From contig NZ_BCWQ01000003.1 of assembly GCF_001592285.1 (NCBI RefSeq), positions 1-64,000 of the forward strand: a stretch of 64,000 bases of DNA, given 5' to 3'. The stretch comes from Hydrogenophaga pseudoflava NBRC 102511 (GTDB lineage: Bacteria > Pseudomonadota > Gammaproteobacteria > Burkholderiales > Burkholderiaceae_C). Under the pieces are notes generated by a model. The model searched no databases, had not been told where the DNA came from, and saw nothing but the letters and a program-made list of their open reading frames with translations. The position numbers were made by a program, and so were the translations under genes. Shown piece by piece: positions 15,368 to 42,250 of the stretch (position 1 is the first letter of the stretch; every line of letters starts with the position of its first letter).

Positions 15368-15372
15368 GGTGA

Positions 15373-18266: not shown

Positions 18267-18279
18267 GGTGGCTCCGGGT

Positions 18280-21680: not shown

Positions 21681-21920
21681 ATGGCGAGCGAACGCAAGGC
21701 ACTGCCTGTCATCGACACGACCCGCTGCACCGGCTGCGGCTGGTGCGTGGCGGTGTGCCCGCCGCACGTGCTCTCGCTGGCGGTGGTGCCGGGCTGGCAG
21801 AAGAAGAGCACGCTGCGCGACGAGGCCGGCTGCACCGGCTGCGCGAAGTGCGCGGTGCGCTGCCCGTTCGACGCGATCGCCATGCAGCGCCTGGGCGGCG
21901 GTCCCTTGGACGAGGGATGA
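21681..21920 (+). CDS. Small 2[4Fe-4S] ferredoxin-like protein
   Basis: A 79-aa protein with two cluster motifs, CTGCGWCVAVCP and CTGCAKCAVRCP, both complete C-x2-C-x2-C-x3-CP. It starts at ATG 21681, 19 bp from the divergent CoA-binding gene. An insertion of about 25 residues (LSLAVVPGWQKKSTLRDEAG) separates the clusters. Redox partners are unknown; nothing nearby requires an obvious electron donor. Confidence 0.85.
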   Translation: MASERKALPVIDTTRCTGCGWCVAVCPPHVLSLAVVPGWQKKSTLRDEAGCTGCAKCAVRCPFDAIAMQRLGGGPLDEG

Positions 21921-21989
21921 AGCCCCCGCGCGAGCGTCCTACAGTGGCCCTCCGGCTTCCTAGGGGAAGCGTTTCACATCGGAGGTTCC

Positions 21990-22598
21990 ATGGACATCAC
22001 CGACATGATCCGCGCCGTCCAGGGCGCGCTGGGCATCGAGACCGACGGCCGTGCCGGACCACAGACCTGGGGCGCCATCTACGCCGCCCTGGTCAAGCCG
22101 ACGATCAACCGCAAGCCGCCCGAACAGGCCCTCTCCGCGGTGGACCCGCGCAGCGAAACCGCCATCGCCACCCTGCTGCCGGAAGCCCGGCCCATGGCGC
22201 GCGCGCTGGTGCAGAAGGCGGCCGCCAGCGGCATCCAGATCAAGGTGATCAGCGGCACCCGCAGCTTCGCCGAACAGGACGCGCTGTTTGCCAAGGGACG
22301 CACCGCACCGGGCCCCAAGGTCACCAACGCGCGCGGCGGCTTCTCCAACCACAACTTCGGCATCGCCTTCGACATCGGCGTCTTCAGCGGCAACAGGTAC
22401 CTGCCGGAGTCGCCCAAGTACAAGGCGGTCGGCGTGCTGGGCATGGAGCTGGGGCTGGAGTGGGGCGGCAACTGGACCACCATCGTCGACCAGCCCCACT
22501 TCCAGCTGCGCCCGGCCTGGGCACAGGACCTCCCGGAACGCGAGATGCTGGCGAGCCTGCGCGAGCGGCTCGCCAGCGGGCAACCGGTGTTCGCCTGA
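21990..22598 (+). CDS. M15-type peptidoglycan peptidase (L-Ala-D-Glu endopeptidase-like)
   Basis: A 202-aa protein with GGAGG before ATG 21990. Residues about 6-34 (MIRAVQGALGIETDGRAGPQTWGA) resemble a short peptidoglycan-binding segment. The catalytic domain has SGTRSFAEQDALFAKGR, the zinc motif SNHNFGIAFDIG and the second zinc motif DQPHFQL, as in phage and ChiX-type endopeptidases. No signal peptide is visible, so export would need a holin or lysis. It converges on the last gene of the large operon with a gap of 18 bp. Confidence 0.85.
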   Translation: MDITDMIRAVQGALGIETDGRAGPQTWGAIYAALVKPTINRKPPEQALSAVDPRSETAIATLLPEARPMARALVQKAAASGIQIKVISGTRSFAEQDALFAKGRTAPGPKVTNARGGFSNHNFGIAFDIGVFSGNRYLPESPKYKAVGVLGMELGLEWGGNWTTIVDQPHFQLRPAWAQDLPEREMLASLRERLASGQPVFA

Positions 22599-22616
22599 GC
22601 GGCACCGGCCGCCGGC

Positions 22617-25109
22617 TCAGGCCGGCATGGGCACGATGAAGGCCGGCCCCGACTGCTGGCCGGTCTGCCCGGGCACCGGCTGGCCCAGGTTGTTGTAGCC
22701 CGTCACCGTGAAGCTGTAGGTGAACGGCCCGCCACCGGCCGACGGCGGCTGCACCAGCACCACGGTCTTCTCTTCGAGCTGGCTGGGCGTGAACAGCACG
22801 CTGGCGAAGTCGGGCTCGTCGCCCGGCCCGCGCAGGTCCACCTTCAGCGCGATCAGCGCACCCAGCGTGGCCTGGGGCAGGCGCACCCGGATGCGCTGCG
22901 TGACGCCGACGCCGTCCATGATCACCGCCACGTTGCCGTCGGCCGCCACCTGGCCGGACTCGAACACCGAACCATCGCCGCGCACCACCGTGGTCTCGTA
23001 GGTGAAGGGCGGTGGCTCGGGCACCAGGGTGGGGATGCGCAGCGAGCGGCGGTCGAGCCGGGTCTCGTCGTAGATCTCCTGGAACTCGCGCCGGTAGCCC
23101 GAGGACGGCTCGTGGTAGCGGATGTCGACCACCGCCTCCATCAGGTTGGTCTGGTCCAGCAGGGGGATGAGGCGGATGTTGAGCTCGCCCTCGAAGGGCT
23201 CGTTGATGATCACCGCCGGGTCGGCGGTGGTGATCCAGTCTTCCTGCACGCGCAGGTTGCCCGACTTGAGGAAGTAGCGCGCCCGGTAGCGGAAGCTGCG
23301 GGTGGCGTTGTTGGCCAGCCGCAGGCGCCAGTGCTTGGTGGCCTCGCCGGGCTTGAGCAGCAAGGTCTTCTCGACCCGGAAGGCGTTGGAGGGGTCGTCG
23401 TAGACCAGCTCGACCTCCACCTGCGTGATCTCGCCGCTGTCCATGTCGCCCAGCGACACCTCGACGTCCATCAGTTCCACATGGTCGAGCGGCGCAATCA
23501 CCAGCTGGCGCGTGCGCTCCACCACCCAGCCGGTGGAGACCTGCGTGTTGGCCGCCGTCCAGTCGCTGTTGGGCGTGAAGGTGATGTCCAGCTTGTAGCG
23601 GTAGCTCAGGTCGCGCCGGTCGTTGAGGAAGGTGGTGAAGGTGCGCGGATCGGTCTTGCCGGGCACGAACAGGAAGCCGTCGACGTGCTGGGCGTCCTCG
23701 TTGGGCGGGCGCTCGCCGGGGTATTCCAGGTTCACCGCCACGCTGGCGATGCCGGCCTGCGCGAGGTCGGTGCCCATGGAGACGGTGGCGATCAGGCGCT
23801 GGAAGAAGCTGTCGTCCAGGCTCACGCTGCGGATGCGGTCGGCCAGGTTGAAGCCCGCCACCACGGTGCCGAACATGCCCTGCGGTGCGGCCGTGCGGGC
23901 CTCGGCCGACTGCATGGAATAGTCGAAGGTGCGCACCTGCAGCTCGTCCTGGTGCACGAACTTGAGCGAGAAGGCCACCTGGAACGGCGAGATCGAGCTG
24001 TTGCCGGCCGGCCCCGCCGCGCCCCCGCTGCCGGCGTTGGCGGCCGCCGCGCTGCGGTTGACGGTGCTGGTGGACGGCACGCCCTCGGACGGCCCGTGCA
24101 CCGCCGGCGCGGTGGTGGGCGTGGCGGTGGACGGTGCGCCCATGGGCGGCGCCAGGGCGGTGCCGGTCTGCGGCCCGGTCAGGCCGCCGAACAGCGACTG
24201 CAGCTGGCCCAGCATGCCCAGGTTGCCCGACTGGCGCGTCATGAAGCTCGGAGGCTCCAGCGCCGATTCGAAGAAGTCCTCCAGCAGCTTGGTCTGGAAC
24301 CACTGCCAGGCGTCGTCGGCCTTCTTGCGCAGGTCCTCGTCGTCGGTGAAGTTCATCACCTCGATCTGCACCGAGCCGTTGTCGCGCAGCTTCTGGAAGG
24401 CCACGCCGATGTCGGCGGCGAGGCTGACCATGCCGATCGATCCGCGGGCGCCCAGCTCGGCCTCCAGGGTCTCGTAGACGCGCTTGTATTCGGCGCGGAT
24501 CTTGATGCGGAACGAGGGGCGCAGGCCCAGGAACTCCAGGTTGTAGATCACCCCCACCGGGCTGATGCCGGTGCGCAGGCCGGCCTCCATCAGGGTGGCG
24601 GCCTCGCGGTCGAGCATCATGGCGAAGGTGGCGCGGTTGAAGCCGAACAGCGAAGGCTGTGTCGCGCCGTACACCTCCTCGTAGAGCTTGAGGCCGCGCG
24701 CCGCGGTGGGCGAGGGGGCCGGGGCGCCCTCGGGCGGGTCCTCGGCGGCGTCCTTGACCACCGACAGCCGCACCGTGCCCTTGCGGAACTGGATCGGCAC
24801 CAGCTTGACGTCGCCGTCGGCGAAGCGGCCGAGCTCGCCCTTGATGCTGCCCAGCGTGCGGTCGTCGACGCCGAGGTCGACGGTGAAGGCCATGAAGCCG
24901 CCGCCCAGCGACTGGCCGCCCGCGTCGGGGTCGAAGTCGGGGTTGTCGGTGATGTCGCGCCGGTACTTGAGGAACAGGAACTCGGGCACGCCGTCGTTGA
25001 GGGCGAGCCGGGGCCGCTCGGGCACGTAATAGAACAGGTTGGTGTCTTCGTGATCGCGGTAGATCATCAGGCCACGGATGGGGCCGATCGGTGCGTCGAG
25101 GTACAGCAT
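22617..25109 (-). CDS. Large beta-repeat paralogue (operon gene 9, 830 aa)
   Basis: The last gene of the 22.6-42 kb operon. It starts at ATG 25109 (MLYLDAPIG), 17 bp after the protease stop; the frame continues upstream but into the protease gene in the wrong frame. The N-terminus shares the pattern D-x(4-6)-FY-x2-P...D-x-G-x-P-x-F...KY with four other proteins of the operon. A middle part has SLFGFNRATFAMMLDREA and GVIYNLEFLGLRPSFRI, matching the 781-aa paralogue. A Pro/Ala/Thr/Gly-rich linker lies at about residues 330-370. The C-terminal half contains beta-sandwich-like repeats (VEVELVYDDPSNAF, VVDIRYHEPSSGY). No signal peptide or membrane segment. Function unknown. Confidence 0.85.
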   Translation of the reverse strand: MLYLDAPIGPIRGLMIYRDHEDTNLFYYVPERPRLALNDGVPEFLFLKYRRDITDNPDFDPDAGGQSLGGGFMAFTVDLGVDDRTLGSIKGELGRFADGDVKLVPIQFRKGTVRLSVVKDAAEDPPEGAPAPSPTAARGLKLYEEVYGATQPSLFGFNRATFAMMLDREAATLMEAGLRTGISPVGVIYNLEFLGLRPSFRIKIRAEYKRVYETLEAELGARGSIGMVSLAADIGVAFQKLRDNGSVQIEVMNFTDDEDLRKKADDAWQWFQTKLLEDFFESALEPPSFMTRQSGNLGMLGQLQSLFGGLTGPQTGTALAPPMGAPSTATPTTAPAVHGPSEGVPSTSTVNRSAAAANAGSGGAAGPAGNSSISPFQVAFSLKFVHQDELQVRTFDYSMQSAEARTAAPQGMFGTVVAGFNLADRIRSVSLDDSFFQRLIATVSMGTDLAQAGIASVAVNLEYPGERPPNEDAQHVDGFLFVPGKTDPRTFTTFLNDRRDLSYRYKLDITFTPNSDWTAANTQVSTGWVVERTRQLVIAPLDHVELMDVEVSLGDMDSGEITQVEVELVYDDPSNAFRVEKTLLLKPGEATKHWRLRLANNATRSFRYRARYFLKSGNLRVQEDWITTADPAVIINEPFEGELNIRLIPLLDQTNLMEAVVDIRYHEPSSGYRREFQEIYDETRLDRRSLRIPTLVPEPPPFTYETTVVRGDGSVFESGQVAADGNVAVIMDGVGVTQRIRVRLPQATLGALIALKVDLRGPGDEPDFASVLFTPSQLEEKTVVLVQPPSAGGGPFTYSFTVTGYNNLGQPVPGQTGQQSGPAFIVPMPA

Positions 25110-25126
25110 GTCAGGCTCCTTGGTGG

Positions 25127-28100
25127 TCAGGCGGGGTGGTGGAACCAGCGGATCCAGTCGCCCAGGTCGTTGTCGCCCATGGACTCCAGCGCCTGGGCCG
25201 GGTCTTCGTAGCGACGGGGCGGGGCGGCCGCGCCGCCATTGGGTGCGGCGCCAGCGGGTGGTGAACTGCCTGCGTACTGCGGGTTCTTGAAGAACACCCG
25301 GCCCGACTCGCCGCGCAGCGCCACCACCGCATGCAGACCGGTGTGGGCCGCGTCGCTGGGCGGCGCGCCCCAGTGCACCACCAGCAGCATCGGGTCGCGC
25401 GCCTGCTGGATGCGCTGCACGAAGTCGTTGCGCAAGGCATCGGTGGGCTGCGGCGCCTGCTGCGTCGAGTGAGCACGCCCCAGCAGCCCGCTGAGCGCCC
25501 GCTGCAGCTGGGCCGCCGTCACGCCGCGCCGCATGGTCTCCTGGAACACGGTGTTGACGCCGTTGGGTGCGTCCGGCGGCGCCGACGGGTCGTACTCGGG
25601 CCAGGCGCTGCCGCGCGCATAGCGCAGCACGGCCGACTGGAAGCCCAGCTCGGCGTTGGTCCGCACAAAGAAGGGCAGCGAGGCGGTGCCGGCGTAGCGC
25701 GCCACCTGGTAGACCCCGGGCGGCACCTCGATCAGATCGCCGTTGGCGAGGGTGGCCTTGGCCTCGCGGCCGAGCAGGCCGCGCAGCAGGCGCACGTATT
25801 CCGAGGCGTTGGTGTTGATCAGCAGCGTCTGCACGCTGGTGGGCCCGCAGGTGCTGGCCGTGCCCTGGTTGGTCTGGCCGTTGGGGTCCATGATTTCGGT
25901 CAGCGCGTCGTCGACCAGCTGTTCGGCAGCGGTGACACCGGCGATGTCGGGGTGCGGATCGATCTGCAGCAGCGCCAGCAGGTGGTCCACCAGCAGCTCG
26001 CGGTCCTTGAGGTCCGGCTGCTTGAGGATGGACATCTCCAGGTTGGCGGCGTTGCGAAAGCGCGTGTCCAGCAGGGTCGGCAGCTTCTGCCGCGCGCCCG
26101 GCCCGGCGAACAGCCACAGCATCAGGATCTTGCCGCGCGTGGCGGTCTCGATCTCGTTGGTGAAGAAGCGGTGGCTGAACACCCCTGCCAGCGACTGGCG
26201 GTCGGGCGAGTCGTCCGGCAGGTTGTTCCACAACCATTGCAGGAAGGCCCCCCAGGGCACCGGCATGGCGTCGACCGCGGCCTGGTCCGGCGCCACCTGC
26301 GAAGCGGCCGAGAGGTTGGTCTGGATGATGGCCAGCCGCTGCGCCAGCGGGTCGTTCTGGAAGCTGGCATCGGGCGGCCAGATCAGCACCGAGGCCGCGC
26401 CGGTGGGGTTCAGACGCACGCGGTAGTAGAGGTTGGGCGACATGGTGGACTGGCCCGCCCGCGCCTTGCGCAGCTCCTCGCGGTAGCCGTCCCACAGGGT
26501 CTGGGGCATCTGCCAGCGCGCCCGGTTGCCGGTCAGGCGGATCACCTGCACCGGTAGCTGAATCTGCTGGTTGCCGCCCGCGGCCTTGGTGATGGTGACG
26601 TCCAGCGCCTGGCCGGTGTTGTAGTAGCGCAGCGGCACATAGCCGGTGCTGGGCGCGAGCAGGGCCTGCGGGTCCCAGGCCAGCTCGATCACCGCCTCGC
26701 CGTTCTCGTTGGCGCTGATCTCGAAGGTCGGCGGCGTGTCGGCCTCGGTCCAGTTGTAGAGCATGGTGCGGATGCGCACCCAGTTGCGGCTGGCAAAGGC
26801 CGGGTAGTTGTAGGCCACGGCGGCCTCGATGTCGAGCTTGCCGTGGCCCCAGTTGTTGTTGGGCGCCGCACTGCCGGTGCCGGTCTGCGCGTCCTTGCGC
26901 GCCGTGGCCTGCAGGCCCAGGCGGATCTGCTCCTGGCGCAGGGTCGGGTTCTTCTCCAGGATCAGGGCCACGGTGCCCGCGACCATGGGCGTGGACATGC
27001 TGGTGCCGGCCATGAGCTGGTAGGTGCCGCTCGCGTCGGTGGTGCCGGGGCTGGTTTCGTCGATGGACATCGCCGACATGACGAACTCGCCCGGCGCGCT
27101 CAGGTCGGGCTTGATGCGCCCGTCGCGCGTGGGCCCGCGGCTGGAGAAGTCCGACAGCGTGCCCTTGTTGCCACCGGCATCGGCACCGGCACCGGTCTTG
27201 GTGCGGTAGCAGCCCACCGCGATGGCCTCTCGCGCACTGGCCGGGATGGCCACCGACTTGCTGACCGTGTCGGGGCTGCCGGTCCAGACCGGGTTGCCGT
27301 CCACCGGGCGCTCGATCCAGGCGTCGAACGGCACGGCGGTGGTGCCGGCGTTGGTCAGCGTGATGCGCCAGGTGCCGCTGGCGATGGACGCCGCCGTGCC
27401 CCGGGTCAGCCGGATCAGGATCTCGTTGTCGTGGTTCTGCACGCTGTCGATGCGCGAATCGATCGCCACCACATTGCCCCCGGCCAGGGTGTGGACCAGC
27501 GTGGTCGGCGCCGCGGCGCTGGCCGGCGGCACCACCACCGGCGTGGCCACGCCCGCCGGGTTGGTCAGGGTGACCGACAGCCGCTGGTTGCCGGGGTACC
27601 AGAGGTCGATGGTGTCGTCCACCACGTCGCCCGCCGGCACGCTGAAGGTCTGCACCAGGTTGCCCGAGGCCGGCACACTGCCGCTGACGGCGATGGCGTT
27701 GTCGGCCTGGTTGCCCGACGAACAGACATAGGCCCGGCCGGGGAAACCCAGCTCGCGGTTGATCGCCTGCTCCAGCAGGGTCGTGCCGTCGTGGGGGCCG
27801 ACGTTCATGCTCTGGCTCTGGTTGACCACCACCGGCCGGTTCAGGGCGGCCGCCACGCTGTAGATGTAGTGCAGGGCGTCGACCGTGCGCACCGAGTTGG
27901 CCAGCTGCAGCGTGCCGTCGCTGCCCCGGCTGTCGTTGCGCACCATGATGATGTCGGCCTCGGGCGCGACCCCGGCGAAGGTGCCGGCCGCGCGGCCGTT
28001 GCCCGCCGCGATGCCCGCCACGTGGGTGCCGTGGGCACCCCGGTCGCGGTGGCGCACCACGCTGTGGGGGTTGGCGTTGCCCAGGGCGCTGTTGATCTGG

Positions 28101-28636
28101 GTGTCGGTGTACTCGACGCCGTAGCTGTAGCCGGCCGGCGCCGCCTCGCCCGCCGCCGGCACGAGGAACTGGTCCCAGATGCGCAGGATGCGCGTGCTGC
28201 CGTCGGCCCTGCGGAAGCTGGCGTGGGTGTAGTCGATGCCCGAATCGATCAGGCCCACGATCACGTTGCGCCCCCGGTAGGCGGTGGGCGGCGTGCCGAT
28301 GCCGGGACTGCGCGTGTTGCCCAGGTGGGCGTCGGCCGTGGCGATGTCGAGCATGGGATGCATCAGGCGCGCGCCCTCGATGCGGACCACACCTTCAATG
28401 ACCGCGAGGGCGTCGATGGCCGACACCGCGATGTCGCCCGTCAGCACGTCGTCGGTCCGGCTGGCGATCTGCAGGCCGGCCGTCACGAGCGGGCCGGTCT
28501 CGCCGTTGAACTGCACCAGCACCGACACGCGCTGGCCATCGGCCGAGAAGCCGTAGCGGTCCAGCAGGTCGGCCGGCAGCTGGTTGCCGGCCTTCAGCCG
28601 GAGGTTGAGATTCAGGGAGGCGTCGATCTTGCTCAT
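25127..28636 (-). CDS. S8 subtilisin-like protease with C-terminal cysteine-peptidase-like domain
   Basis: A 1169-aa protein. Residues 1-105 look like an I9-type propeptide (VSVLVQFNGETGP...GVVRIEGARLMHPMLD). The S8 triad is complete: D131 in GLIDSGID, H202 in GAHGTHVAG, S546 in AGTSMSTP; the oxyanion Asn is in VCSSGNQ. A beta-sandwich insert lies between H202 and S546. The C-terminal part contains STCGPTSVQTLL (C930), GLHAVVAL (H1102) and FFKNPQ (N1118), the order and spacing of a papain/C39-like peptidase. There is no classical signal peptide. In the operon it follows a free-standing propeptide-like gene and precedes the last beta-repeat gene. The second catalytic domain is my inference from motifs. 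Confidence 0.88.
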   Translation of the reverse strand: MSKIDASLNLNLRLKAGNQLPADLLDRYGFSADGQRVSVLVQFNGETGPLVTAGLQIASRTDDVLTGDIAVSAIDALAVIEGVVRIEGARLMHPMLDIATADAHLGNTRSPGIGTPPTAYRGRNVIVGLIDSGIDYTHASFRRADGSTRILRIWDQFLVPAAGEAAPAGYSYGVEYTDTQINSALGNANPHSVVRHRDRGAHGTHVAGIAAGNGRAAGTFAGVAPEADIIMVRNDSRGSDGTLQLANSVRTVDALHYIYSVAAALNRPVVVNQSQSMNVGPHDGTTLLEQAINRELGFPGRAYVCSSGNQADNAIAVSGSVPASGNLVQTFSVPAGDVVDDTIDLWYPGNQRLSVTLTNPAGVATPVVVPPASAAAPTTLVHTLAGGNVVAIDSRIDSVQNHDNEILIRLTRGTAASIASGTWRITLTNAGTTAVPFDAWIERPVDGNPVWTGSPDTVSKSVAIPASAREAIAVGCYRTKTGAGADAGGNKGTLSDFSSRGPTRDGRIKPDLSAPGEFVMSAMSIDETSPGTTDASGTYQLMAGTSMSTPMVAGTVALILEKNPTLRQEQIRLGLQATARKDAQTGTGSAAPNNNWGHGKLDIEAAVAYNYPAFASRNWVRIRTMLYNWTEADTPPTFEISANENGEAVIELAWDPQALLAPSTGYVPLRYYNTGQALDVTITKAAGGNQQIQLPVQVIRLTGNRARWQMPQTLWDGYREELRKARAGQSTMSPNLYYRVRLNPTGAASVLIWPPDASFQNDPLAQRLAIIQTNLSAASQVAPDQAAVDAMPVPWGAFLQWLWNNLPDDSPDRQSLAGVFSHRFFTNEIETATRGKILMLWLFAGPGARQKLPTLLDTRFRNAANLEMSILKQPDLKDRELLVDHLLALLQIDPHPDIAGVTAAEQLVDDALTEIMDPNGQTNQGTASTCGPTSVQTLLINTNASEYVRLLRGLLGREAKATLANGDLIEVPPGVYQVARYAGTASLPFFVRTNAELGFQSAVLRYARGSAWPEYDPSAPPDAPNGVNTVFQETMRRGVTAAQLQRALSGLLGRAHSTQQAPQPTDALRNDFVQRIQQARDPMLLVVHWGAPPSDAAHTGLHAVVALRGESGRVFFKNPQYAGSSPPAGAAPNGGAAAPPRRYEDPAQALESMGDNDLGDWIRWFHHPA

Positions 28637-28690
28637 GATGGTGTTCTCCAGAGATCGAAGGGATCGCGAGGGCGGCGGACGCGCCGGGCG

Positions 28691-29041
28691 TCAGGGGTTC
28701 GGCCGGACGCCGTCGGCGGGCGGACCGTCGTCGGTGTCCGGTGCCAGCGGCGCGGCGGCCGACAGCGCCCGGACCGACGGCAGGCGCGCCAGCTCGGCCA
28801 GCGCCCTCAGCGGCAGCCGCAGGGTCTGCAGGTCGGTCGGCGCGGGGCCTGCCGCGGCCGTGGGCGGGCGGTTCCAGACGCCCCCCAGCCGGGCCACCTG
28901 GTCCAGGTCGGCGGCGCTGGGTGTGGAGGCCCATTGCAGGAGCACATCGACCACCGGGTTGTCCTGCGGGGCCAGCAGGCGGATCTGCAGGCTGGTCGGT
29001 GCGTCGATCTTGTTCAGGTAGGAGGTGTCGTCGTTGTCCAT
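28691..29041 (-). CDS. Free-standing S8 propeptide-like small protein
   Basis: A 116-aa protein starting at ATG 29041, 54 bp upstream of the protease gene. Its sequence parallels the propeptide of that protease: LNKIDAPTSLQIRL against MSKIDASLNLNLRL at the start, VDVLLQW against VSVLVQF, then LPLRALAELARLPSVRALSAAAPL against VSAIDALAVIEGVVRIEGARLMHP. No catalytic residues. I infer a duplicated propeptide acting in trans as inhibitor or folding chaperone; the similarity is weak enough that a search or structure prediction is needed to settle it. Confidence 0.65.
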   Translation of the reverse strand: MDNDDTSYLNKIDAPTSLQIRLLAPQDNPVVDVLLQWASTPSAADLDQVARLGGVWNRPPTAAAGPAPTDLQTLRLPLRALAELARLPSVRALSAAAPLAPDTDDGPPADGVRPNP

Positions 29042-29056
29042 GGGGCGCTCCGGTGG

Positions 29057-29899
29057 TCAGTGAAGCGGCGGCGCGTGGCCGCCGTGGTGGAGGGTCTGCT
29101 TGGGGCCGCGCAGCACGAAGTGCACCGTCTCCAGCGAACCGTCGGGGTGCAGGCTGATTTCGAGGGCCGCGCCGATCACCTGCGACGGCGGGTCCGGCAG
29201 GTCCGGTGCCAGCAGCTTGTAGAGCGCCTGGGCGAAGCAGCCGTCGCCCCCCAGGCTGTGCACCGCCTCGGTCAGCCGGTCGCACTTGTCCCGCGTCTCG
29301 GGCACCAGCGCCCACAGGCTGCTGGCCACCCGCAGCGCGGGCTGCTCGCCACCGGGACCGCGCAGGCCCAGGCTCCAGGGCCGGCTGCGCGGCGGCAGGG
29401 GGCGGCCCAGCAGGGTCGCCCAGACATCGGCCACCGTCGACCAGGCCCTCGACAGGCCCAGCAGGCGCAGCGCATCGGCCGCGTCGGCCTGGCGCGGCAG
29501 GTGGTAGGAAAACCAGGGCTCGGTCTTGTGGTCGGCGTCGATGCGGTAGAGGGTCGCCAGCGCGCCCACGCGCGGGTGCAGGCCCTGCTGCGGACGCTCC
29601 CAGCCCCATGCCTGCGGCTGCCAGCCGGGGGCACCGATCACCACCTGGCCCACCTCCTGGCCGTCCAGCCAGTGGGTCCAGCGCTGCGCACCCGGGGCGG
29701 ACGGGCGCCGGGTCCAGAGGTTGAGTCGGCGCGCGCCCGGCGCCTGCACCGACACCAGCGCGCCGCTGCCGGCCTCGATGCAGGTGCGGAAAGACAGGTC
29801 GGTCGCCAGCGCGTCGCCCTCGACCCGGGGCACGAAGGCGCGCGGCCCGAGTCCGGCCAGCAGGCCCGCGTGCTGCATCCATGAGGGTGTGGTCTGCAT
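29057..29899 (-). CDS. Unrecognised 280-aa protein of the large operon
   Basis: Starts at ATG 29899, three bases after the stop of the upstream 781-aa gene, and ends 15 bp before the propeptide-like gene, so it is embedded in the operon. It has no signal peptide or membrane helices. Visible features are an N-terminal Trp/Gly/Arg-rich region (LNLWTRRPSAPG, WTHWLDGQEVGQVV), a mid-helical stretch (ADALRLLGLSRAWSTVADVWATLL) and C-terminal strands ending LETVHFVLRGPKQ, then a His-rich tail. I recognise no family. Confidence 0.8.
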   Translation of the reverse strand: MQTTPSWMQHAGLLAGLGPRAFVPRVEGDALATDLSFRTCIEAGSGALVSVQAPGARRLNLWTRRPSAPGAQRWTHWLDGQEVGQVVIGAPGWQPQAWGWERPQQGLHPRVGALATLYRIDADHKTEPWFSYHLPRQADAADALRLLGLSRAWSTVADVWATLLGRPLPPRSRPWSLGLRGPGGEQPALRVASSLWALVPETRDKCDRLTEAVHSLGGDGCFAQALYKLLAPDLPDPPSQVIGAALEISLHPDGSLETVHFVLRGPKQTLHHGGHAPPLH

Positions 29900-29902
29900 G
29901 AT

Positions 29903-32248: not shown

Positions 32249-32268
32249 GTCAGTCTCCTGGGCTGTGG

Positions 32269-34959: not shown

Positions 34960-34992
34960 GGTGGTTCTCCTGGCGGTGGGTGTGCGGTGGGG

Positions 34993-37584
34993 TCAGGGTG
35001 CGGGCTGCCAGCGCGGAATCACCAGCAAGGGCTTGTCGGTGTGGGCCAGCGGCAGGGTGTGGGGCGTCTGGTCGGGCGCCACGAAGTAGGTGATCTGGTA
35101 GCTGTAGAAGCGGCGACTGAGGTCGCCAACCTCGACCGTCCAGCTCAGCGTCGCGCGCTCGCTGAAGGCCACCGCGTGGCTGGCGTCGATGCCGTGCACC
35201 TCGTCCTGGTAGCGCAGGTCCACCGTCACCAGCGGTGTCTGGGCGAAATCGATCAGCGCGCCGACCAGCTGCACCGTGAGCGAGCCCGGCCGGGGCGGCT
35301 GGTAGGGCGGCAGCACGAGCACCGGGTCCTCTTCCTCGAAGGGCGGCAGCACCACCGGGTCGCCGGTGGCCGGGAAGTGCGTCACCTGCACGCGGTAGCG
35401 CACCGGTGTGCCGGCGGGCACGTCCACGTTCCACACCACCGGCTGCTTGGCCCGGAACACGAAGGTCTCCTGCCGGCCGGTGGGCAGGTGGGTCAGGCCG
35501 ACCTCGGTCAGCGGCGCGGCGGCCAGATCGAGCCGGTCGGGAATGATCTGGATCTGGTGGCGCGGCGGCGCCTGGACCACGATGGGCAGGGTCTCCTCGC
35601 CCGTGTGGCTCTGCCACGGTCCCTGCTGGAAGCGGCCGTCCTTGAAGCTGGCGTGCACGCGGTACTCGAAGCCCCGGCGGTTCTGGTCGCGCAGCGCCAC
35701 TTCCCAGGTGCGGAACTCCTGGCTGGTCTTGAGCACCAGGCTTTCCTCGCGCCGCAGGCCATTGGGGGCGTCCTCGTAGCGCAGGTCGACGATCACCTGG
35801 GCCACACCGTCCCAACCGTCGCCGGCGGGCAGCAGGCGCACGCGCAGCAGGCCGCGGGCCGGCTGGTTGACGATGAGCTGGTGGCCGGAGAGTTCCTGCC
35901 AGTCGGGGTCTTCCACCACCTCGCCGCTGAGCATCCGAAAGCGCTGGCGGTAGAGCACCGGGCGCGCGCGCGGTTCAAAAATCTGCCGGTCGTACACACC
36001 GCTTGTGCTGGTCTTGTCCAGCAGCACGGTCTGTTCCTGGCGCGGCACACCGGCGGCCGGGTCTTCGTAGGCCAGCAGCACCTGCACCTGCCGCACCTGG
36101 TTCTCGAAGTCGATGTCGCCCGCGCGCACCTCGACGAACACCCGGCCGGCGGCCGGCACGGAAATGTTGAGGTCGTTGCGGCTGGCGGCTTCCCAGCGGG
36201 TGAACGAGCCGAACGCCCGGCCGGCGAACTTGAAGCGGTAGCGGTATTCGTAGCCACGCTCGTCGCCGATCAGCTTGGGCTCCCACTTCTGCGGCTGGTT
36301 GCCGGTGAAGGTGAAGGTCTTGAGCTTTTCCTGGCGGTCGCCGTTGGCGTCGCGGCCGGCGTAGCGCAGCTCGACCTCGACCGCCTCCAGCCCCGCGGGA
36401 TCAAAAGGCGCGAACACGCGGGCCGTGAGGTTGAGCGACTGGAACACCGGATCGTCCAGCACCACCACGCGCACGAAGTTCGCGATCTGCGCCGCCGACA
36501 TGCCGCGGAAGAAGGTCTGCAGCGTGCCCTGCGGGTGGATGGGCCAGGACACCACGCTGTTCTGCTCCAGGCTCAGTTCCAGCTTCACGTGCATGCTGTC
36601 CTGCTGCTTGCGCAGGTACTTCTTGGTCCGGTCGCGGCGGCCCGAGAGCGCCTCGTCGGGCACGTCGCCCGAGCCCGAGGGCCGGTGCGCCTCGGCCGGG
36701 TCGTCGGTGAAGAAGTTCGACTCCACCAGCTGCTGCATCACCTCCAGCGCGTAGCGCCGCAGCTCGGCGATCACCGCGTCGTCGAGCGAGCCGCTGCCGG
36801 TGTCGATCTGCACCGTGATCAGGCCGGCCACCTCGGCCGAGGCGGTGTCGATGTCGCTGTGCTGGAAGTCGTAGGTGGTGCAGTGGTCGACACCGGCGCC
36901 GTCCATGATCTTGCGCACCTGCTCGTACATGCGCTGCGAGTCGGCCTTCACATGGATGCGCACCGGCGGCAGGCGGGCCCAGAAGCTCAGGTCGTAGCGC
37001 ACCTGGATCGGCGTCAGGTCGGAGGCCCCGGCGGCCCCACCGCCGCCGGTGAGGGTGCGCTCCATGAAGGTGGCGCCCTCGCTGGTGAGGTCCATGCTGA
37101 ACACCGAGACGTTGTCGGCCAGCAGGGACGGCGCGCCGCTGGCCACGCGCTTGCTCACCAGCACGCTGGTCTGCGGCGCGTCCATGGCCACCGTGCCGCC
37201 GGTGTAGGTGGGGGTGCCGAAGTCCACCGGCGGTGGTGCGGTCATGCCCTGCACCGAAGCCTTCTCCTCGGCACTGCCGGCCTGGCGGCGCGCGAACTCG
37301 GTGTCCACCCAGGCCTGCAGGTTGGCGCGCACTGCCTCGCGCTGCGCGTCGTCCAGCTCGAACACCACGTCGACGTTGAGGTAGCCGCCGCCGCGCGGCA
37401 GCGTGGGGTTGCGCGCCAGCTCCTCGTCGGACAGCGCGTACTTGACCAGCAGGAACACCGGCTGGCCGTCGGCGTCCAGGCGCACCCGGGGCTGGTCTGC
37501 CACGGGGTAGAAGCGGTGCCAGAGCGTGTCGTCGGCGTAGACGGTGACGCCGTCGACGGTTCGGAAGGCGGGGACTTTCAGCAT
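34993..37584 (-). CDS. Large beta-repeat paralogue (operon gene 3, 863 aa)
   Basis: Starts at ATG 37584 (MLKVPAFRTVDGVTVY). Closely related to the 896-aa gene downstream throughout: RGGGYLNVDVVF, GASDLTPIQVRYDLSFWARLPPVR, HPQGTLQTFFRGMSAAQI. The same beta modules follow (VLLAYEDPAAGV, VDLRYEDAPNGL, VDLRYQDEVHGI). An acidic Ser/Gly/Pro-rich loop lies around residues 300-320. No signal peptide or membrane segment. The pair probably arose by tandem duplication and has diverged, so each likely has a distinct place in the assembly. Confidence 0.85.
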   Translation of the reverse strand: MLKVPAFRTVDGVTVYADDTLWHRFYPVADQPRVRLDADGQPVFLLVKYALSDEELARNPTLPRGGGYLNVDVVFELDDAQREAVRANLQAWVDTEFARRQAGSAEEKASVQGMTAPPPVDFGTPTYTGGTVAMDAPQTSVLVSKRVASGAPSLLADNVSVFSMDLTSEGATFMERTLTGGGGAAGASDLTPIQVRYDLSFWARLPPVRIHVKADSQRMYEQVRKIMDGAGVDHCTTYDFQHSDIDTASAEVAGLITVQIDTGSGSLDDAVIAELRRYALEVMQQLVESNFFTDDPAEAHRPSGSGDVPDEALSGRRDRTKKYLRKQQDSMHVKLELSLEQNSVVSWPIHPQGTLQTFFRGMSAAQIANFVRVVVLDDPVFQSLNLTARVFAPFDPAGLEAVEVELRYAGRDANGDRQEKLKTFTFTGNQPQKWEPKLIGDERGYEYRYRFKFAGRAFGSFTRWEAASRNDLNISVPAAGRVFVEVRAGDIDFENQVRQVQVLLAYEDPAAGVPRQEQTVLLDKTSTSGVYDRQIFEPRARPVLYRQRFRMLSGEVVEDPDWQELSGHQLIVNQPARGLLRVRLLPAGDGWDGVAQVIVDLRYEDAPNGLRREESLVLKTSQEFRTWEVALRDQNRRGFEYRVHASFKDGRFQQGPWQSHTGEETLPIVVQAPPRHQIQIIPDRLDLAAAPLTEVGLTHLPTGRQETFVFRAKQPVVWNVDVPAGTPVRYRVQVTHFPATGDPVVLPPFEEEDPVLVLPPYQPPRPGSLTVQLVGALIDFAQTPLVTVDLRYQDEVHGIDASHAVAFSERATLSWTVEVGDLSRRFYSYQITYFVAPDQTPHTLPLAHTDKPLLVIPRWQPAP

Positions 37585-37633
37585 GGGGTCACCTCTGTGG
37601 AGGGTGGGCGCACCGGGGCGGTGGGGCGCGGGT

Positions 37634-39436
37634 TCATGTCGGCACCTGCTCGACGAGCAGTTCGGGGGTCTGGTCCACGCGCCAGGGGCCGACGCGCAGC
37701 GGGCGGGTGGCGCCAGTGGCCGGGTCGCGGCCGACCCAGTGCAGGCGCCAGGCGTAGGAACGGGGCTGCAGCAGGCTGCGGCGCCAGTAGGACCAGCGGC
37801 GTGCCTGCCCCGCCTCCAGCGTCAGCAGGGTGCCGCTGGCGCCGTCGGCGGGCACGGTGTCGCTGGCCAGCAGCTCCACCGCCACCAGCGCCGTCGCCCC
37901 GGCCAGCGGTTCGGCCAGGCGCAGGTCGACCGTTTCTGGCGCCGTGGGCTCCAGCGCCCAGCCGTTCAGGCGCAGACCCTCTGTCGGCAAGGGGCCGGAC
38001 CAGAAAAGCTGCTCCGCCCCGTCGCCCGCGCGGGCCATGGCCTGGGCCGTCACCGGGGTCAGGCGCTCGTCGCCGGTCAGGCACACCCAGGCGTCCGGGG
38101 TCTGCGGGTTCAGTTCGATGGATCGGGTCGGGCCGCTGGCGGGAGTCACCACCAGCCGCACCGCCACGGCGTGGGCCCAGAGCGAGGGGTCGGCCGCCAC
38201 CGGCACCGGGCGCACGCCGGCCTCCGCCTCGCCGATCACCAGTTGCAGGCCCTGCACCGGCACGAAGTCCGGCGACGACAGCGTCAGCGGCAGCTGCCCT
38301 TCCCGGGCCACCACCGCCAGCGTGCGGTGCGACAGTTCCAGGCCGGCACCGAAGGCGGGGCCGACCACCGACAGGGCGTGCAGCCCGGTGCGGGCATCGA
38401 AGCGGAAGGTGTGGTGCACCCAGGCCCCGCTGGGACCGCGGTAGCGCAGCTCCACGTCCAGCTGGGCCAGGCCGCGGGGGTGCAGGGGCAGGGCGCAGAG
38501 CACGTGCACCGTGACCCGCTGCATGGGGCGGAACGGCGTGACCACCGGAAAGGCCAGGGCGTGCCCGGCCCATTGGCGGTGGGCCTCGCTCACCGACCAG
38601 CCCAGGCGCCGCTCGACGGTGTCGGGCAGGGGCAGGTCCAGGCGCCACGAGAGGCCGTCGACCGCGTCGGTCAGCGGCACCCCGGGGTGCCACTCGAAGC
38701 CCTCGCCCACGCGGCGGAACAGGCTCTGGCGCGCGCTGCGCGCGGCCTGCAGCGCCAGTGCTTCGGTGTCGGCCGGTACCGCGTCGTCCAGCAGCGGCTG
38801 CCAGCGCAGCAGGCCCGCTGGCAGGCTCAGGAAGGCGCGGTCGAGGTCCCGGGCGCTGGCCGGCGCATCGGCGGGCAGCAGGGCCTGCAGCTGGTCGTGC
38901 AGGGTGGTGCCGGTGGTCGTCACCACCCAGGGCAGGCCGGGCCGCAGCCCCGGCACGCGCAGCCGCAGCTCCAGCTCCACCGGTTCCGGCCCGCCGGCCT
39001 CGGCCTCGCGCACCAGTGCCGTGACGATGCGGGTGTCGTCCGGGCCCAGGTGATGGGTGAGCGAGAGGGCATCGGCCGAGCCCACGGCCACGGGCTGCCA
39101 CTGACCGGACGCCTGCACCAGGTCGCCCGACACGCCGCGCAGCACCAGGCGGGCCTCGGCCTGCGCCACCGGCGCGGGCTCCAGCGCATGGCCGGCCAGC
39201 GACGGCTCGCGGGCCAGGGCATCGAGGTGGGTGTGGTCCAGCGCCAGGAAGGCCTGCAGCAGGCCGCCGTCCTGCGCCGCGCCGTCGTCGGCGGTGCGCC
39301 GCAGCAGCGTGAAGCGCGGCAAGCCGTCGGCGTCCAGCGCCAGGGCCACGCGGTCCGGCAGGACATACAGCCGGTGCGCGTCCCGGTGGTCGGGGAACAC
39401 GTCCGGGAAGTCGGGCAGCGGCCGGGTGAGCATCAT
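37634..39436 (-). CDS. Beta-rich paralogue with shared N-terminal motif (operon gene 2, 600 aa)
   Basis: Starts at ATG 39436 two bases after the stop of the first operon gene, with GCAGGAGTGACC upstream, so coupling is likely. The N-terminus (DVFPDHRDAHRLYVLPDR then LDADGLPRFTLL) matches the common domain of the other large proteins, but the central conserved block is not evident and the protein is shorter. The rest is beta-rich with Trp-containing strands (ALAFPVVTPF, VELRYRGPSGAWVHHTF, RRWSYWRRSLLQPRSYAWRLHWVG). It ends in a strand-rich module like those of its neighbours. No signal peptide or membrane segment. Confidence 0.82.
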   Translation of the reverse strand: MMLTRPLPDFPDVFPDHRDAHRLYVLPDRVALALDADGLPRFTLLRRTADDGAAQDGGLLQAFLALDHTHLDALAREPSLAGHALEPAPVAQAEARLVLRGVSGDLVQASGQWQPVAVGSADALSLTHHLGPDDTRIVTALVREAEAGGPEPVELELRLRVPGLRPGLPWVVTTTGTTLHDQLQALLPADAPASARDLDRAFLSLPAGLLRWQPLLDDAVPADTEALALQAARSARQSLFRRVGEGFEWHPGVPLTDAVDGLSWRLDLPLPDTVERRLGWSVSEAHRQWAGHALAFPVVTPFRPMQRVTVHVLCALPLHPRGLAQLDVELRYRGPSGAWVHHTFRFDARTGLHALSVVGPAFGAGLELSHRTLAVVAREGQLPLTLSSPDFVPVQGLQLVIGEAEAGVRPVPVAADPSLWAHAVAVRLVVTPASGPTRSIELNPQTPDAWVCLTGDERLTPVTAQAMARAGDGAEQLFWSGPLPTEGLRLNGWALEPTAPETVDLRLAEPLAGATALVAVELLASDTVPADGASGTLLTLEAGQARRWSYWRRSLLQPRSYAWRLHWVGRDPATGATRPLRVGPWRVDQTPELLVEQVPT

Positions 39437-39438
39437 GG

Positions 39439-41973
39439 TCACTCCTGCGGCAACGTCACCTGCAGATGGCCGACCCCGGCCAGTCCGTCGTGCACGCGTT
39501 CGCCACCCCGCGCATCCACCGCCACCAGCCGGTAGCGGTAACCAGGCTCCAGGCCCAGGATGCGCGCCACCACCGGCTTGCGCAGGCTCACCGTCTGCAC
39601 CAGCGTGCCGGCGTCGAGCGTCACCACCGGACCGTCGTCGAACTCGACCCGCAGCGACGTCAGCGCACCGGGACCGAAGAACAGCGGGCTGGCCGACACC
39701 TGCACCTCGAACGTGGCCTCGGTGAAGGCCTCGGTGACGGTGAGCTGGCCCATGAGCCGGGCGAGGTCGGGCTGGATGTCCAGGTCCAGCGCCGGGCTGA
39801 CCGACAGCAGCGGGAAGGCCGCGGGCTCGACGGCCAGGCGCAGGTCCAGGGTCTGGCCCGGCGCCACCGCAGCGGCCGGTGGCAGCTCCAGGGGGCGCAC
39901 GGTCACGGTCTGCGCGACACCGGTGGCCGGGTCGGTCCACACGCCCAGCTCCTGCGGGTGGACCCCGTTGACGCGCACCGGGCTCTCGATGCGGTTGCGC
40001 AGGGTCACGACGTGGTGGCCGGGCACGCCGTCGGGGTCGGGGCGCAGCAGCTGGGGATCGAACACGCTGCCGGTGTTGTCCTTGAGCGAGACCACCAGCG
40101 GGATGTCGACCTGCGTGCCGTCGCTGATGGTGGCCGTCACCCAGCCCTGCATGCCGATGCCCGCCGGCGACTGGAAGGCGGCCGCCAGACGCACGAACTG
40201 CGCCTCGTCCAGCGACAGCTCGTCGGTGATGCCCTCGTCGAAGCGGATCACCGCGTCGGGCCGCTCCTGCAGCGCCGGGGGCGCGCCGTCGGCGGTCGGC
40301 ACGCCCAGGGTGAGCCGGGCCGACCGGGGGGTGAGCGCGGTCAGGCGCGCCGCGGGACCAAAGCGCTGGCGCGCCAGCAGAAGGAAGGCCTGGCCGAGGT
40401 GGGGCCGCGCCTGGAACGCCAGGCGCACCCGGTAGGACAGCGCCTCGCTCTCGGTGGCCACGTCGGTGATGGCGAACACCAGCGAGGGCAGGAAGGGGCT
40501 GGCGTCGCTGCGCGCGAGCCGGAACTCCTGCGGCTCGTAGTAGACCTGGTCGCGCACCAGCGAATCCTGGAAGAAGGTCACGCTCTGGCCCTCGGCCACC
40601 AGGTCGTGCTTGAACAGCACATGGGCCTGCGAGGGGTCGCGCGGCGCATCGAGCATGTAGCCGTCGGCCTGGGGGTCGAAGGTGCAGGCCAGCGACTGCG
40701 TGCACTCGACCTCGCGCCGCACCAGCACCGGCCGGCCCTTCTTGTCGATGGCCACGCGCCGCGGCAGGGTGCGCAGCACGCGCGCCGTCTCTTCCCGGGA
40801 CAGCGCCTCGTCCAGATCGGGGTTGTGGTGCGGGCGCCGTACGCCCCGCGCGAGTGCCAGCGTGGCGGCACTGGCGCGGTCGGCCCGCAGGCTGGCGATC
40901 GCGGGCATCCGCGGCCCCGCCGCCGCCACCACCGCCAGCGGCTGGGTGCGCAGCGTGCTCAGCACCGCGGGGCTGATGCGCACCATGTCGATGTCCGGCC
41001 GCAGCGGGGCCACCGCCGGCCGGTCGTGCAGCCACCACTGCTGCCAGGTGCGCTGGCCGATCGTGGCCTTGCACACCACCTCCAGCCGGGCGCGGTGCAC
41101 CGGCGAGGTGATGATCTGGTGGATGCGGTCGTAGTCCTCCTGGGCGTGGAAGGGCAGCGTGCAGCGGTGCACGCTGCCGCCCAGCGGGTTCAGCGGGCCG
41201 AGCGGCTCCCAGATCAGCGGCTGCGCCGGCGCGGCGGCCACCGAGCGGGCCATGACGTAGTTGCTCAGGCGATCGGTGCGGCCATCGGCGTCGGTGTAGT
41301 CGTCCAGCACGTCCACCACCAGCGTCTGGCCGCTGCGGCGGGCGGTGAGGGTGGTGACCTTGAAGCCGAAGGCGTAGACACCGGTCAGCGCGTCGCCCGA
41401 GGGCATGGCCGTGGTCTCGCCCCAGTCGCAGTCGCTCGGGTGGCACTTGCCGAAGCCGTGCATGAACCAGCCGCCGTCGGCCCGCCGCCCGATCAGCAGG
41501 CGGGTCATGCCCCGCGTGGCCGCATCGGTGTTTTCCCACTGGCCCTCCCAGGTCAGCGTCGCCGGGTCGGCCGCCGCCACCACCGGCATTTCGTACCCCA
41601 GCCGCAGCGTGGCGGTGTGCTCAAGCGTGCGCATGGCGAAGCGCGCATCGACGGCGTGCACCGCCAGCAGCTCGATGTTCAGCCAGCCCAGCGGACCGAG
41701 CGGGTCGTCGTCGGCCGTGCGCAGGCGCAACCGGGAGGTGTGGCGCCCGCCCACCGTGTTCCATTCGTAGCGCGGCAGCTGGTACCGGGCGCTGGCATCG
41801 TCCGATGCCTCGTAGAGCACCTGGGGTTGGAGGGAGCCGTCCGGGCTCACCGGCACCGGGGCCTGTGCAGCCGCTGTCGTCACCGGATGCACCTTGGGCG
41901 TGAGCAGCAGCGTCTTGAGCTCGAAAGCTTGCAGCTGGTTGCTCATCAACAGAACCTGCTCGTCGCTTGCCAT
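39439..41973 (-). CDS. First gene of the large operon: 844-aa beta-rich protein
   Basis: Starts at ATG 41973 with GCAGGAGCGG upstream. It lacks the FY-x2-P domain of the other large proteins. A segment at about residues 165-245 contains WFMHGFGKCHPSDCDWGE followed by GVYAFGFKVTTLTA, a Cys-containing beta module whose CHPSDCDWG pattern I have seen in uncharacterised bacterial proteins, where it may bind a ligand. The central part is mixed. The C-terminal 300 residues look like two or more beta-sandwich domains (VRVNGVHPQELGVWT, TFEVQVSASPLFFG). No signal peptide or membrane segment. It may be a base or cap component of an assembly; this is speculation. Confidence 0.82.
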   Translation of the reverse strand: MASDEQVLLMSNQLQAFELKTLLLTPKVHPVTTAAAQAPVPVSPDGSLQPQVLYEASDDASARYQLPRYEWNTVGGRHTSRLRLRTADDDPLGPLGWLNIELLAVHAVDARFAMRTLEHTATLRLGYEMPVVAAADPATLTWEGQWENTDAATRGMTRLLIGRRADGGWFMHGFGKCHPSDCDWGETTAMPSGDALTGVYAFGFKVTTLTARRSGQTLVVDVLDDYTDADGRTDRLSNYVMARSVAAAPAQPLIWEPLGPLNPLGGSVHRCTLPFHAQEDYDRIHQIITSPVHRARLEVVCKATIGQRTWQQWWLHDRPAVAPLRPDIDMVRISPAVLSTLRTQPLAVVAAAGPRMPAIASLRADRASAATLALARGVRRPHHNPDLDEALSREETARVLRTLPRRVAIDKKGRPVLVRREVECTQSLACTFDPQADGYMLDAPRDPSQAHVLFKHDLVAEGQSVTFFQDSLVRDQVYYEPQEFRLARSDASPFLPSLVFAITDVATESEALSYRVRLAFQARPHLGQAFLLLARQRFGPAARLTALTPRSARLTLGVPTADGAPPALQERPDAVIRFDEGITDELSLDEAQFVRLAAAFQSPAGIGMQGWVTATISDGTQVDIPLVVSLKDNTGSVFDPQLLRPDPDGVPGHHVVTLRNRIESPVRVNGVHPQELGVWTDPATGVAQTVTVRPLELPPAAAVAPGQTLDLRLAVEPAAFPLLSVSPALDLDIQPDLARLMGQLTVTEAFTEATFEVQVSASPLFFGPGALTSLRVEFDDGPVVTLDAGTLVQTVSLRKPVVARILGLEPGYRYRLVAVDARGGERVHDGLAGVGHLQVTLPQE

Positions 41974-42250
41974 GTCCGCTCCTGCAAGAGGTGCCCCCGG
42001 TGGCCCTGACCCGGTGGACGGACCAGCGCGGCGGGGGGAGGGGACCCAATGTAGGAGTGCAGAACGGCGGTGACATCCTTCCGACTAGGGACCGGCGGCC
42101 GCAAGGATCACCCGTTTTGAGGACAAGTCCGCGCCCGTATAACCGATCCGCCGCCGCACCGCCGGGCGGCAGGAACAAAGGCGTTCCGGTTCCCGTTTTC
42201 CCCGCGGGCGCCAGCGCTGTTTGCTGCACCGCGTCATGATTTCTTCATGT

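Follow-up and report, generated by a model that had tools for sequence, protein, structure and literature searches.

In type 10 secretion, as known from the ChiWXYZ proteins of Serratia and from the toxin complex (Tc) lysis cassette of Yersinia entomophaga, a phage-type L-Ala-D-Glu endolysin is inherited together with large leaderless proteins. As far as the available parts of the sources go, ChiX is an L-Ala-D-Glu endopeptidase that is structurally nearest to Ply500 and is required for chitinase secretion (PMC5778951), and the lysis cassette releases the Tc complex of Y. entomophaga (PMC10847048). The available parts of two further sources present polymorphic toxin systems, in which a constant body is combined with an apparently exchangeable toxic-type domain and a small neighbour diverging with it (PMC3482391), and nucleoside triphosphate (NTP)-dependent conflict systems with EAD domains and protease effectors (PMC7159879). 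The window analysed here (64,000 nucleotides of Hydrogenophaga pseudoflava NBRC 102511, contig NZ_BCWQ01000003.1, positions 1 to 64,000) holds an island made up of a nine-gene operon, with large beta-repeat proteins and a composite protease, and a neighbouring M15 endolysin gene. It has traits in common with these systems and lacks at least one tested defining feature of each of type 10 secretion, polymorphic toxins, EAD systems, IetAS, and phage-like machines. We tentatively read the island as encoding a large and soluble assembly of proteins that carries an exchangeable payload of enzymes and would be released by endolysin lysis in a manner resembling type 10 secretion, a reading that we prefer while holding it with limited confidence.

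The earlier note on this DNA had placed nine minus-strand reading frames at 22617-41973, separated by gaps of 2-54 bp, and re-deriving the coordinates and lengths returned the same frames, with gaps of 2, 49, 33, 20, 3, 15, 54, and 17 bp; the gene caller's start for the 280-amino-acid (aa) gene lies 7 codons later (273 aa). Absent from that note were a tenth gene (M15) and the composite make-up of the 1169-aa protein. The features are given below by position in the window, where N-domain stands for the N-terminal domain common to the beta-repeat paralogs and HMM for hidden Markov model.

21890..42213, inserted unit (M15 gene and nine-gene operon), about 20.3 kb, delimited by BLASTN against an empty site
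21990..22598, plus strand, M15 L-Ala-D-Glu endopeptidase, phage-type endolysin, 202 aa, from PDB and PHROG matches
22617..25109, minus strand, gene 9, 830 aa, beta-repeat paralog
25127..28636, minus strand, gene 8, predicted 1169-aa fusion protein
25127..26791, minus strand, papain-like half of gene 8 (residues 616-1169), a free gene in Pararhizobium and G060
26792..28306, minus strand, S8 subtilase domain of gene 8 (residues 111-615), from PF00082, 4i0w, and the catalytic triad
28307..28636, minus strand, S8 prodomain of gene 8 (residues 1-110), similar to gene 7
28691..29041, minus strand, gene 7, 116-aa free prodomain-like protein, proposed S8 inhibitor
29057..29899, minus strand, gene 6, 280 aa (or 273), no fold assigned
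29903..32248, minus strand, gene 5, 781 aa, beta-repeat paralog
32269..34959, minus strand, gene 4, 896 aa, beta-repeat paralog
34993..37584, minus strand, gene 3, 863 aa, beta-repeat paralog
37634..39436, minus strand, gene 2, 600 aa, distant shorter beta-repeat paralog, recognised with HMMs
39439..41973, minus strand, gene 1, 844 aa, possibly with a diverged N-domain near residues 466-558
41974..42213, no strand assigned, upstream region from gene 1 to the right end of the inserted unit, presumed promoter

The M15 gene and the nine genes were inserted as one unit, since the site is empty in a close Hydrogenophaga genome (G632, L086), where the BLASTN match of the window ends at 21889 and restarts at 42214, with 93-94% identity on either side. 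In G828 (L087), where the site is likewise empty, the match ends at 21884 and restarts at 42136, so that the right edge of the unit is uncertain by about 80 bp, and in G785 both flanking genes adjoin one another too. The G+C content of the unit is 70.3%, as compared with 66.7% for the remaining window, no further gene was called inside it, and no hydrophobic small reading frame was seen upstream of the operon (41974..42213). At 14312-19143 of the window, four adjoining genes resemble what we take to be an NAD-salvage set (nicotinamidase, NAPRT, NAD synthetase, nucleotidyltransferase), and at least three of them also adjoin the empty site in G632.

The M15 gene is convergent with the operon and lies 18 bp from its end. 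Its product was matched in the PDB to LysB4 (9e-24) and Ply500 (2vo9, 3e-23) and in PHROGs to an endolysin (6e-32), and the metal-site residues H121-x6-D128 and D167-x2-H170 are present, assigned by what we take to be the M15 metal-site pattern. Among the 45 Hydrogenophaga genomes of ≥ 90% completeness, the gene (threshold E ≤ 1e-10) was present in 5, and it is these genomes, and no others of the 45, that have a beta-repeat locus (5 of 67 if genomes of all qualities are counted); such an overlap has a chance of 1 in 1.2 million if genomes are independent, and Hydrogenophaga genomes are related. In contrast, 18 of 39 genomes have the flanking nitroreductase, and 13 of these lack the operon. In G500, M15 adjoins an operon of another type (about 25% identity), and in G797 it lies apart from any of the nine genes, 3.3 kb from the nitroreductase, the other-type operon of this genome being 1.1 Mb away. 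The interval of about 3.2 kb between nitroreductase and lone M15 in G797 (L085:7446-10662) is where the operon sits in other genomes, and a tblastn search of it with the nine proteins left no trace. As in type 10 secretion, the endolysin stands outside a prophage (no phage structural gene in the island, an ordinary chromosomal empty site); unlike there, it has no holin or spanins beside it, and the candidate cargo belongs to an unrelated protein family.

A phage-type endolysin would also be expected if the island were a remnant of a phage, tailocin or injection machine, and in the G710 relative a 1197-aa protein is tape-measure-like against PHROGs (4e-7), perhaps only via long helices. However, the nine proteins gave no phage-structural or injection-machine match (Pfam, PHROGs), and the structural homologs that define phages, tailocins, extracellular contractile injection systems, the type VI secretion system, and Tc complexes (tail, sheath, baseplate, TcA/B/C) were not found among them. 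A search of 50,697 phage records with two of the paralogs found no match, and the protein of one, searched against viral contigs, gave 4 pattern matches, none encoding a relative. We consider such an origin very improbable. The earlier note had proposed an assembly, secreted or phage-like, that its own protease would process; what is left of the phage link is the endolysin travelling with the operon, while no phage homology of the large proteins was found in these searches. The protease is probably not an enzyme dedicated to maturing the assembly, because at related loci the enzymes are unrelated or none was recognised, and its behaviour is rather that of a payload that can be exchanged. The other proposal of the earlier note, a predation or defence device, is still a candidate.

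Four of the large proteins (863, 896, 781, and 830 aa) are clear paralogs, with a best BLAST E of 7e-23 or better in all six pairs, and have in common an N-domain of about 285 residues and a run of immunoglobulin (Ig)-like repeats; in gene 9, the N-domain covers about residues 1-285, followed by a linker (about 286-380) and by the repeats from about 380 on. Of the five large paralogs claimed earlier, the fifth is the weak one, namely the 600-aa protein, which matches the common N-domain HMM at 7e-6 (best shuffled decoy 0.07) and the repeat HMM at 2e-6. The 844-aa protein is possibly a sixth, diverged paralog, as its profile aligns with that of the N-domain at P 8e-4 over 95 columns, yet with a probability of only 24%, and the protein alone scores E 0.28 against the N-domain HMM, poorer than the best decoy. 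It has relatives in Pararhizobium (1e-68), G060, the type II Hydrogenophaga loci, G872, and G1039, and the 280-aa protein is similar to a 304-aa Pararhizobium protein at the same gene position (2e-11). Neither a signal peptide nor a membrane segment is evident in any of the nine (highest 19-residue Kyte-Doolittle mean 1.56), just as the earlier note had stated. Cysteines are few, with 2 in 3370 residues of the four paralogs and 24 in 15132 residues of 19 relatives from other loci, as compared with 66 in 9207 residues of 33 flanking genes. Ratios of nonsynonymous to synonymous substitution rates (dN/dS) suggest that the nine genes and M15 are under purifying selection, with values of 0.05-0.28 against H. 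pseudoflava CZa25-1 (L012), where gene 9 (0.06) is the lowest of the nine, and of 0.06-0.39 for the seven genes compared with Hydrogenophaga sp. A37 (L011).

Outside the S8 domain, no convincing match was obtained in Pfam, NCBIfam, PADLOC or PHROGs, in agreement with the earlier note, which knew of no described system with this gene set. For the eight proteins other than the S8 protein, no family match in these four libraries is better than E 0.001, nor is any better than E 0.01 in Pfam, NCBIfam, and PHROGs; the PADLOC Csm5 model for the 896-aa protein (0.0013, the best stray match) and the stray Pfam and PHROG matches of the nine proteins (0.016 upward) were taken as chance. A profile of 16 paralogs against the PDB gave a best E of 0.77, which was rejected. 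The AlphaFold2 model of the 830-aa paralog (14 sequences) had a mean predicted local distance difference test score (pLDDT) of 59.6, with block values mostly at 58-91 from residue 500 on, and that of its N-domain alone a mean of 64.3. With the former model, Foldseek returned generic tandem Ig/macroglobulin-type matches only, among them many to complement and alpha-2-macroglobulin structures that were not taken as homology, and with the N-domain model it returned nothing at E ≤ 0.001; the best VIA-align Z for the N-domain (5.6) was under the meaningful level, and its fold was left unclaimed.

The dual protease described in the earlier note was recovered, the S8 half by Pfam and the C-terminal half by its papain-like spacing. 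The S8 domain belongs to the S8 family by PF00082 (4.3e-44) and its triad (D131/H202/S546), and its best solved relative is the germination protease CspB (4i0w, 8.5e-38), although it reaches only 144 bits against the curated cut-off of 1250 for the NCBIfam CspBA model. Csp proteases activate a peptidoglycan hydrolase; to our knowledge, the host is not a spore former. The domain also matches IetS of the anti-phage system IetAS (PADLOC, 4.8e-8), but the match is limited to about 100 residues, and no ATPase was found among the nine. In the papain-like half, Q924-C930 and H1102-N1118 (Gln-x5-Cys and His-x15-Asn, spacings 6 and 16) were assigned with what we take to be papain numbering and spacing; the four residues do not vary among the 5 sequences aligned, which include three close orthologs, and a profile of these 5 sequences found no peptidase in the PDB. 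Residues 619-1168 correspond to an entire free-standing Pararhizobium gene (588 aa, 40% identity) and residues 619 to 1124 to a free-standing G060 gene (536 aa, 26% identity). As judged from these alignments, the 1169-aa protein is a fusion of an S8 subtilase and a separately occurring papain-like half, and because the latter stands free in Pararhizobium and G060, S8 was probably added to an older papain-like component. The propeptide-like character that had been claimed for the 116-aa protein was confirmed by its similarity to the prodomain of S8 (z 4.8, with none of 1000 shuffles as high; 96 control windows gave z 2.8 at most; A37 pair z 2.9, 7 of 1000 shuffles). Since it is like the prodomain and its gene is missing in Pararhizobium together with S8, the 116-aa protein is suggested to be an inhibitor of the S8 domain.

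A sharp divergence step separates the halves of gene 8 in A37. Identity to the window is 68% for the S8 domain, 51% for its prodomain, and 48% for the 116-aa protein, as opposed to about 95% for the papain-like half. The S8 half, prodomain included, has a dS of 0.73 and the papain-like half one of 0.37, a difference that none of 5000 codon permutations equalled; the 116-aa gene reaches 1.12, and the other genes, apart from genes 1 and 2, give 0.29-0.36. The step is found near residue 600, the free-standing relatives begin at the equivalent of residue 619, and in gene 8 of the other H. pseudoflava it is absent. It looks as if S8 and the 116-aa gene had been exchanged together. A constant body and a small neighbour diverging with the exchangeable part recall polymorphic toxins; compared with what the available part of their source presents, the variable part is here N-terminal or a separate gene instead of a C-terminal toxin, no trafficking domain was matched (Pfam), and an immunity role of the 116-aa protein would be putative.

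The comparison of loci covered 14 of them, namely the window, L012, L011, Pararhizobium, G060, G500, G797, G872, G1039, Paracoccus, Azospirillum, G710, Calothrix, and Ruegeria (Paracoccus was counted once, its sister SMMA_5 having the same genes as the SMMA_5_TC plasmid; G872 and G1039 are of the same class as G710). The gene order, on whose conservation the earlier note had let its view depend, recurs in two other Hydrogenophaga with all nine genes (CZa25-1, 87-98% protein identity; A37, 48-97%) and, minus the S8 half and the 116-aa gene, on plasmid p2 of Pararhizobium qamdonense, which carries genes 1-6, a papain-like gene, and gene 9 (26-47% identity). An enzyme or toxin was recognisable in the gene run of 9 of the 14 loci: S8 with a papain-like half in the window, L012, and L011; a papain-like gene alone in Pararhizobium; a papain-like gene, a NAL1-type protein, presumably with a protease role, and an amidase in G060; caspase C14 in G500 (2e-23), with a 97% identical counterpart in G797; phospholipase D (PLD)-like, tyrosinase, and trypsin genes on the Paracoccus SMMA_5_TC plasmid, the tyrosinase with what we take to be a twin-arginine translocation (Tat)-like leader; and an Hbl-like toxin (2e-12) on a plasmid of Azospirillum lipoferum 4B. 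The papain-like assignments in relatives were made by motif and homology, with no Pfam match. The payload candidates are unrelated to one another (S8 protease with its own putative inhibitor, caspase, trypsin, phospholipase, tyrosinase, Hbl-like pore-former), while the body family spans beta- and alphaproteobacteria to cyanobacteria. Six of the 14 loci contain or adjoin an endolysin-like gene (the three type I, G500, G797, and G060), with matches to PHROG endolysins next to the G797 type II locus (1.4e-7) and in G060 (4e-9; Amidase_3, 7e-12). The body family was found in 3 of 398 genomes of the phylum, the own genome included, and further samples gave relatives in 2 of 299, 3 of 399, 3 of 289, and 1 of 42 genomes; all these counts, like the 5 of 67 for Hydrogenophaga, are lower bounds (samples overlap, and several scored only a few candidates per genome), and each includes the window genome or the centre genome.

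As the associated enzymes include hydrolases and an oxidase (S8, trypsin, PLD-like, tyrosinase), the proteins might instead form an extracellular or surface scaffold that holds enzymes for nutrition or matrix building and is not a weapon. The repeat part does resemble tandem Ig-like and adhesin domains generally, and the stated sources of the relatives are soil, hot spring, and seaweed. We nevertheless rate this explanation as distinctly improbable, given that neither a scaffold-attachment domain nor a secretion signal was found in the nine, that an Hbl-like pore-former and a caspase would be odd for nutrition, and that the body is as rare in the phylum as described above.

Further observations were made on the relatives. 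The second (type II) Hydrogenophaga locus (G500, L029:5326-19901 and L030:1-2526; G797, L059:7581-19901 and L060:1-4999) holds the same body family at about 25% identity together with caspase C14, a 298-aa protein, and an alpha-toroid-like protein with a DADDTA motif. Its 970-aa paralog has an extra stretch in the linker, and an OmpA-like insert suspected by eye in this protein had no Pfam match. The toroid and 298-aa families had no meaningful PDB match, the 280-aa protein of the window was not accepted as a member of the 298-aa family (hhalign probability 6.6%), and the lysozyme look of the G797 neighbour was without a Pfam or PDB match, though it is the gene with the PHROG endolysin match. 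Terpene chemistry was considered from a Trp_DMAT match at 0.04-0.053 and from the DADDTA motif, which we take to be linked to terpene cyclases, and was not adopted. In Azospirillum (L090:16475-24279), the Hbl-family gene and two helical-looking neighbours directly precede a beta-repeat protein, a 279-aa protein, and a toroid-like protein, and in Paracoccus (L022:10414-36266), an EAD1-trypsin, an EAD1 protein, and a STAND-like ATPase run directly into a locus with five beta-repeat paralogs. On the Ruegeria YS9 plasmid (L058:11829-17262), the N-domain is present and the repeats were not found: two short N-domain proteins (7e-15 and 1e-13), both presumably exported by their signal-peptide pattern, enclose a gene with a peptidoglycan-binding domain (5e-12), perhaps as an exported minimal version. 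In G1039, the N-terminal part of the 757-aa protein (L101:2369-4642) is that of one paralog type and the C-terminal part that of a second type, as though two genes had been fused via an internal deletion. The Calothrix NIES-4101 plasmid (L091:19965-31460) carries a 775-aa paralog, a lone 209-aa N-domain, 309- and 346-aa proteins, and a 1494-aa protein with an end stretch similar to the paralog; the nuclease look of two Calothrix proteins had no Pfam match. The 1197-aa protein of G710 (L028:7148-10741) stands beside a paralog; to the eye its start looks propeller-like, and it has long helices. The gene two positions upstream of the Pararhizobium locus (L021:27-4298) encodes a 1423-aa protein that combines P450, a hydrophobic stretch, and a DyP-peroxidase-like part.

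For the assembly with exchangeable payload, we propose the following course. The conserved body would consist of the beta-repeat proteins (N-domain and Ig-like repeats) and the 844-aa protein, and the payload of the window strain would be a zymogen-like S8 subtilase fused to an older papain-like domain, with S8 held in check by its own prodomain and by the free 116-aa prodomain-like protein. The proteins would be made in the cytoplasm, because no signal peptide is evident, and would be released once the neighbouring M15 endolysin, which is of phage type, has cut the producer cell's peptidoglycan, after which the freed complex may act on other cells or on extracellular protein. What the sequences show is the gene content, the insertion as one unit, the co-occurrence of M15, the catalytic residues in place, and the divergence step within gene 8; exchange of the S8 cassette, assembly, inhibition by the 116-aa protein, lytic release, and any outside target are what we infer. 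With somewhat less confidence still, the island could stand for an undescribed class of multi-protein bacterial weapon, in which an Ig-like repeat body takes up unrelated payloads and exits via an endolysin in Hydrogenophaga.

Several points weigh against an assembly of this kind. At 5 of the 14 loci (G872, G1039, G710, Calothrix, and Ruegeria), where only some of the genes were scanned and the contig of G710 stops close by, no enzyme or toxin was recognised, so that the payload is not shown to be universal. A peptidoglycan hydrolase was not noticed at 8 of the 14 loci, and no holin or spanin was seen in the island (a distant holin elsewhere in the genome was not sought). Owing to the kinship within Hydrogenophaga, the co-occurrence in 5 of 45 genomes does not amount to 45 independent trials. 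Both structure predictions are of low confidence and give complex formation no structural support, and a low cysteine content is a weak sign, with 5 of 26 flanking proteins > 150 aa having zero. In A37, genes 1 and 2 are also strongly diverged (dS 0.59 and 0.69), as is the 69-codon end of the papain-like half (dS 0.80), so that patchy recombination or fast evolution could mimic cassette exchange. Finally, the caspase and the EAD1/STAND neighbours in Paracoccus fit an intracellular conflict system too.

In such an intracellular system, serving defence or programmed death, the beta-repeat proteins would sense or scaffold, infection would free a protease (S8/papain-like, caspase or trypsin) from its inhibitor, and the endolysin would kill the infected cell. 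The caspase stands inside the type II operon, the EAD1-trypsin, EAD1 protein, and STAND-like ATPase are directly upstream in Paracoccus, and the available part of PMC7159879 describes protease/EAD1/STAND sets as conflict systems, some with peptidoglycan-attacking effectors; patchy distribution, insertion as a unit, and the lack of an evident signal peptide in the nine would suit such a role as well. On the other hand, the NTPase core and the EAD that characterise these systems are missing among the nine genes (Pfam), PADLOC is significant only for the S8 protein, and M15 is convergent and outside the operon. An EAD1 search of the window genome found none, but its control matched nowhere either, which makes it uninformative. 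The tyrosinase with its presumed Tat-like leader and the Hbl-like toxin are a poor fit for a purely internal role. Overall, we regard defence or programmed death as the main rival and judge it somewhat unlikely, though sequence alone cannot separate it from payload release, which we continue to prefer tentatively.

The single parts of the island are ordinary (S8, M15, caspase, trypsin), while the body family and the combination are without a counterpart in the libraries searched, and no description of this gene set was found in the open-licence PubMed Central literature, as judged by titles and the starts of abstracts. From its gene content, the island appears to be categorically new as a gene system, with a putative function. 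Body proteins that match no described family turn up in several bacterial classes in the same gene order, and the enzymes next to them or fused into the set are unrelated to one another. If the assembly with exchangeable payload is real, the island would represent a new system of delivery or conflict in which the sequence itself reveals the natural joints between domains, and a link of endolysins to the release of large proteins without leaders could be tested outside the type 10 systems known to date. Should the proteins serve defence inside the cell, they would constitute a new protease-based immune device.

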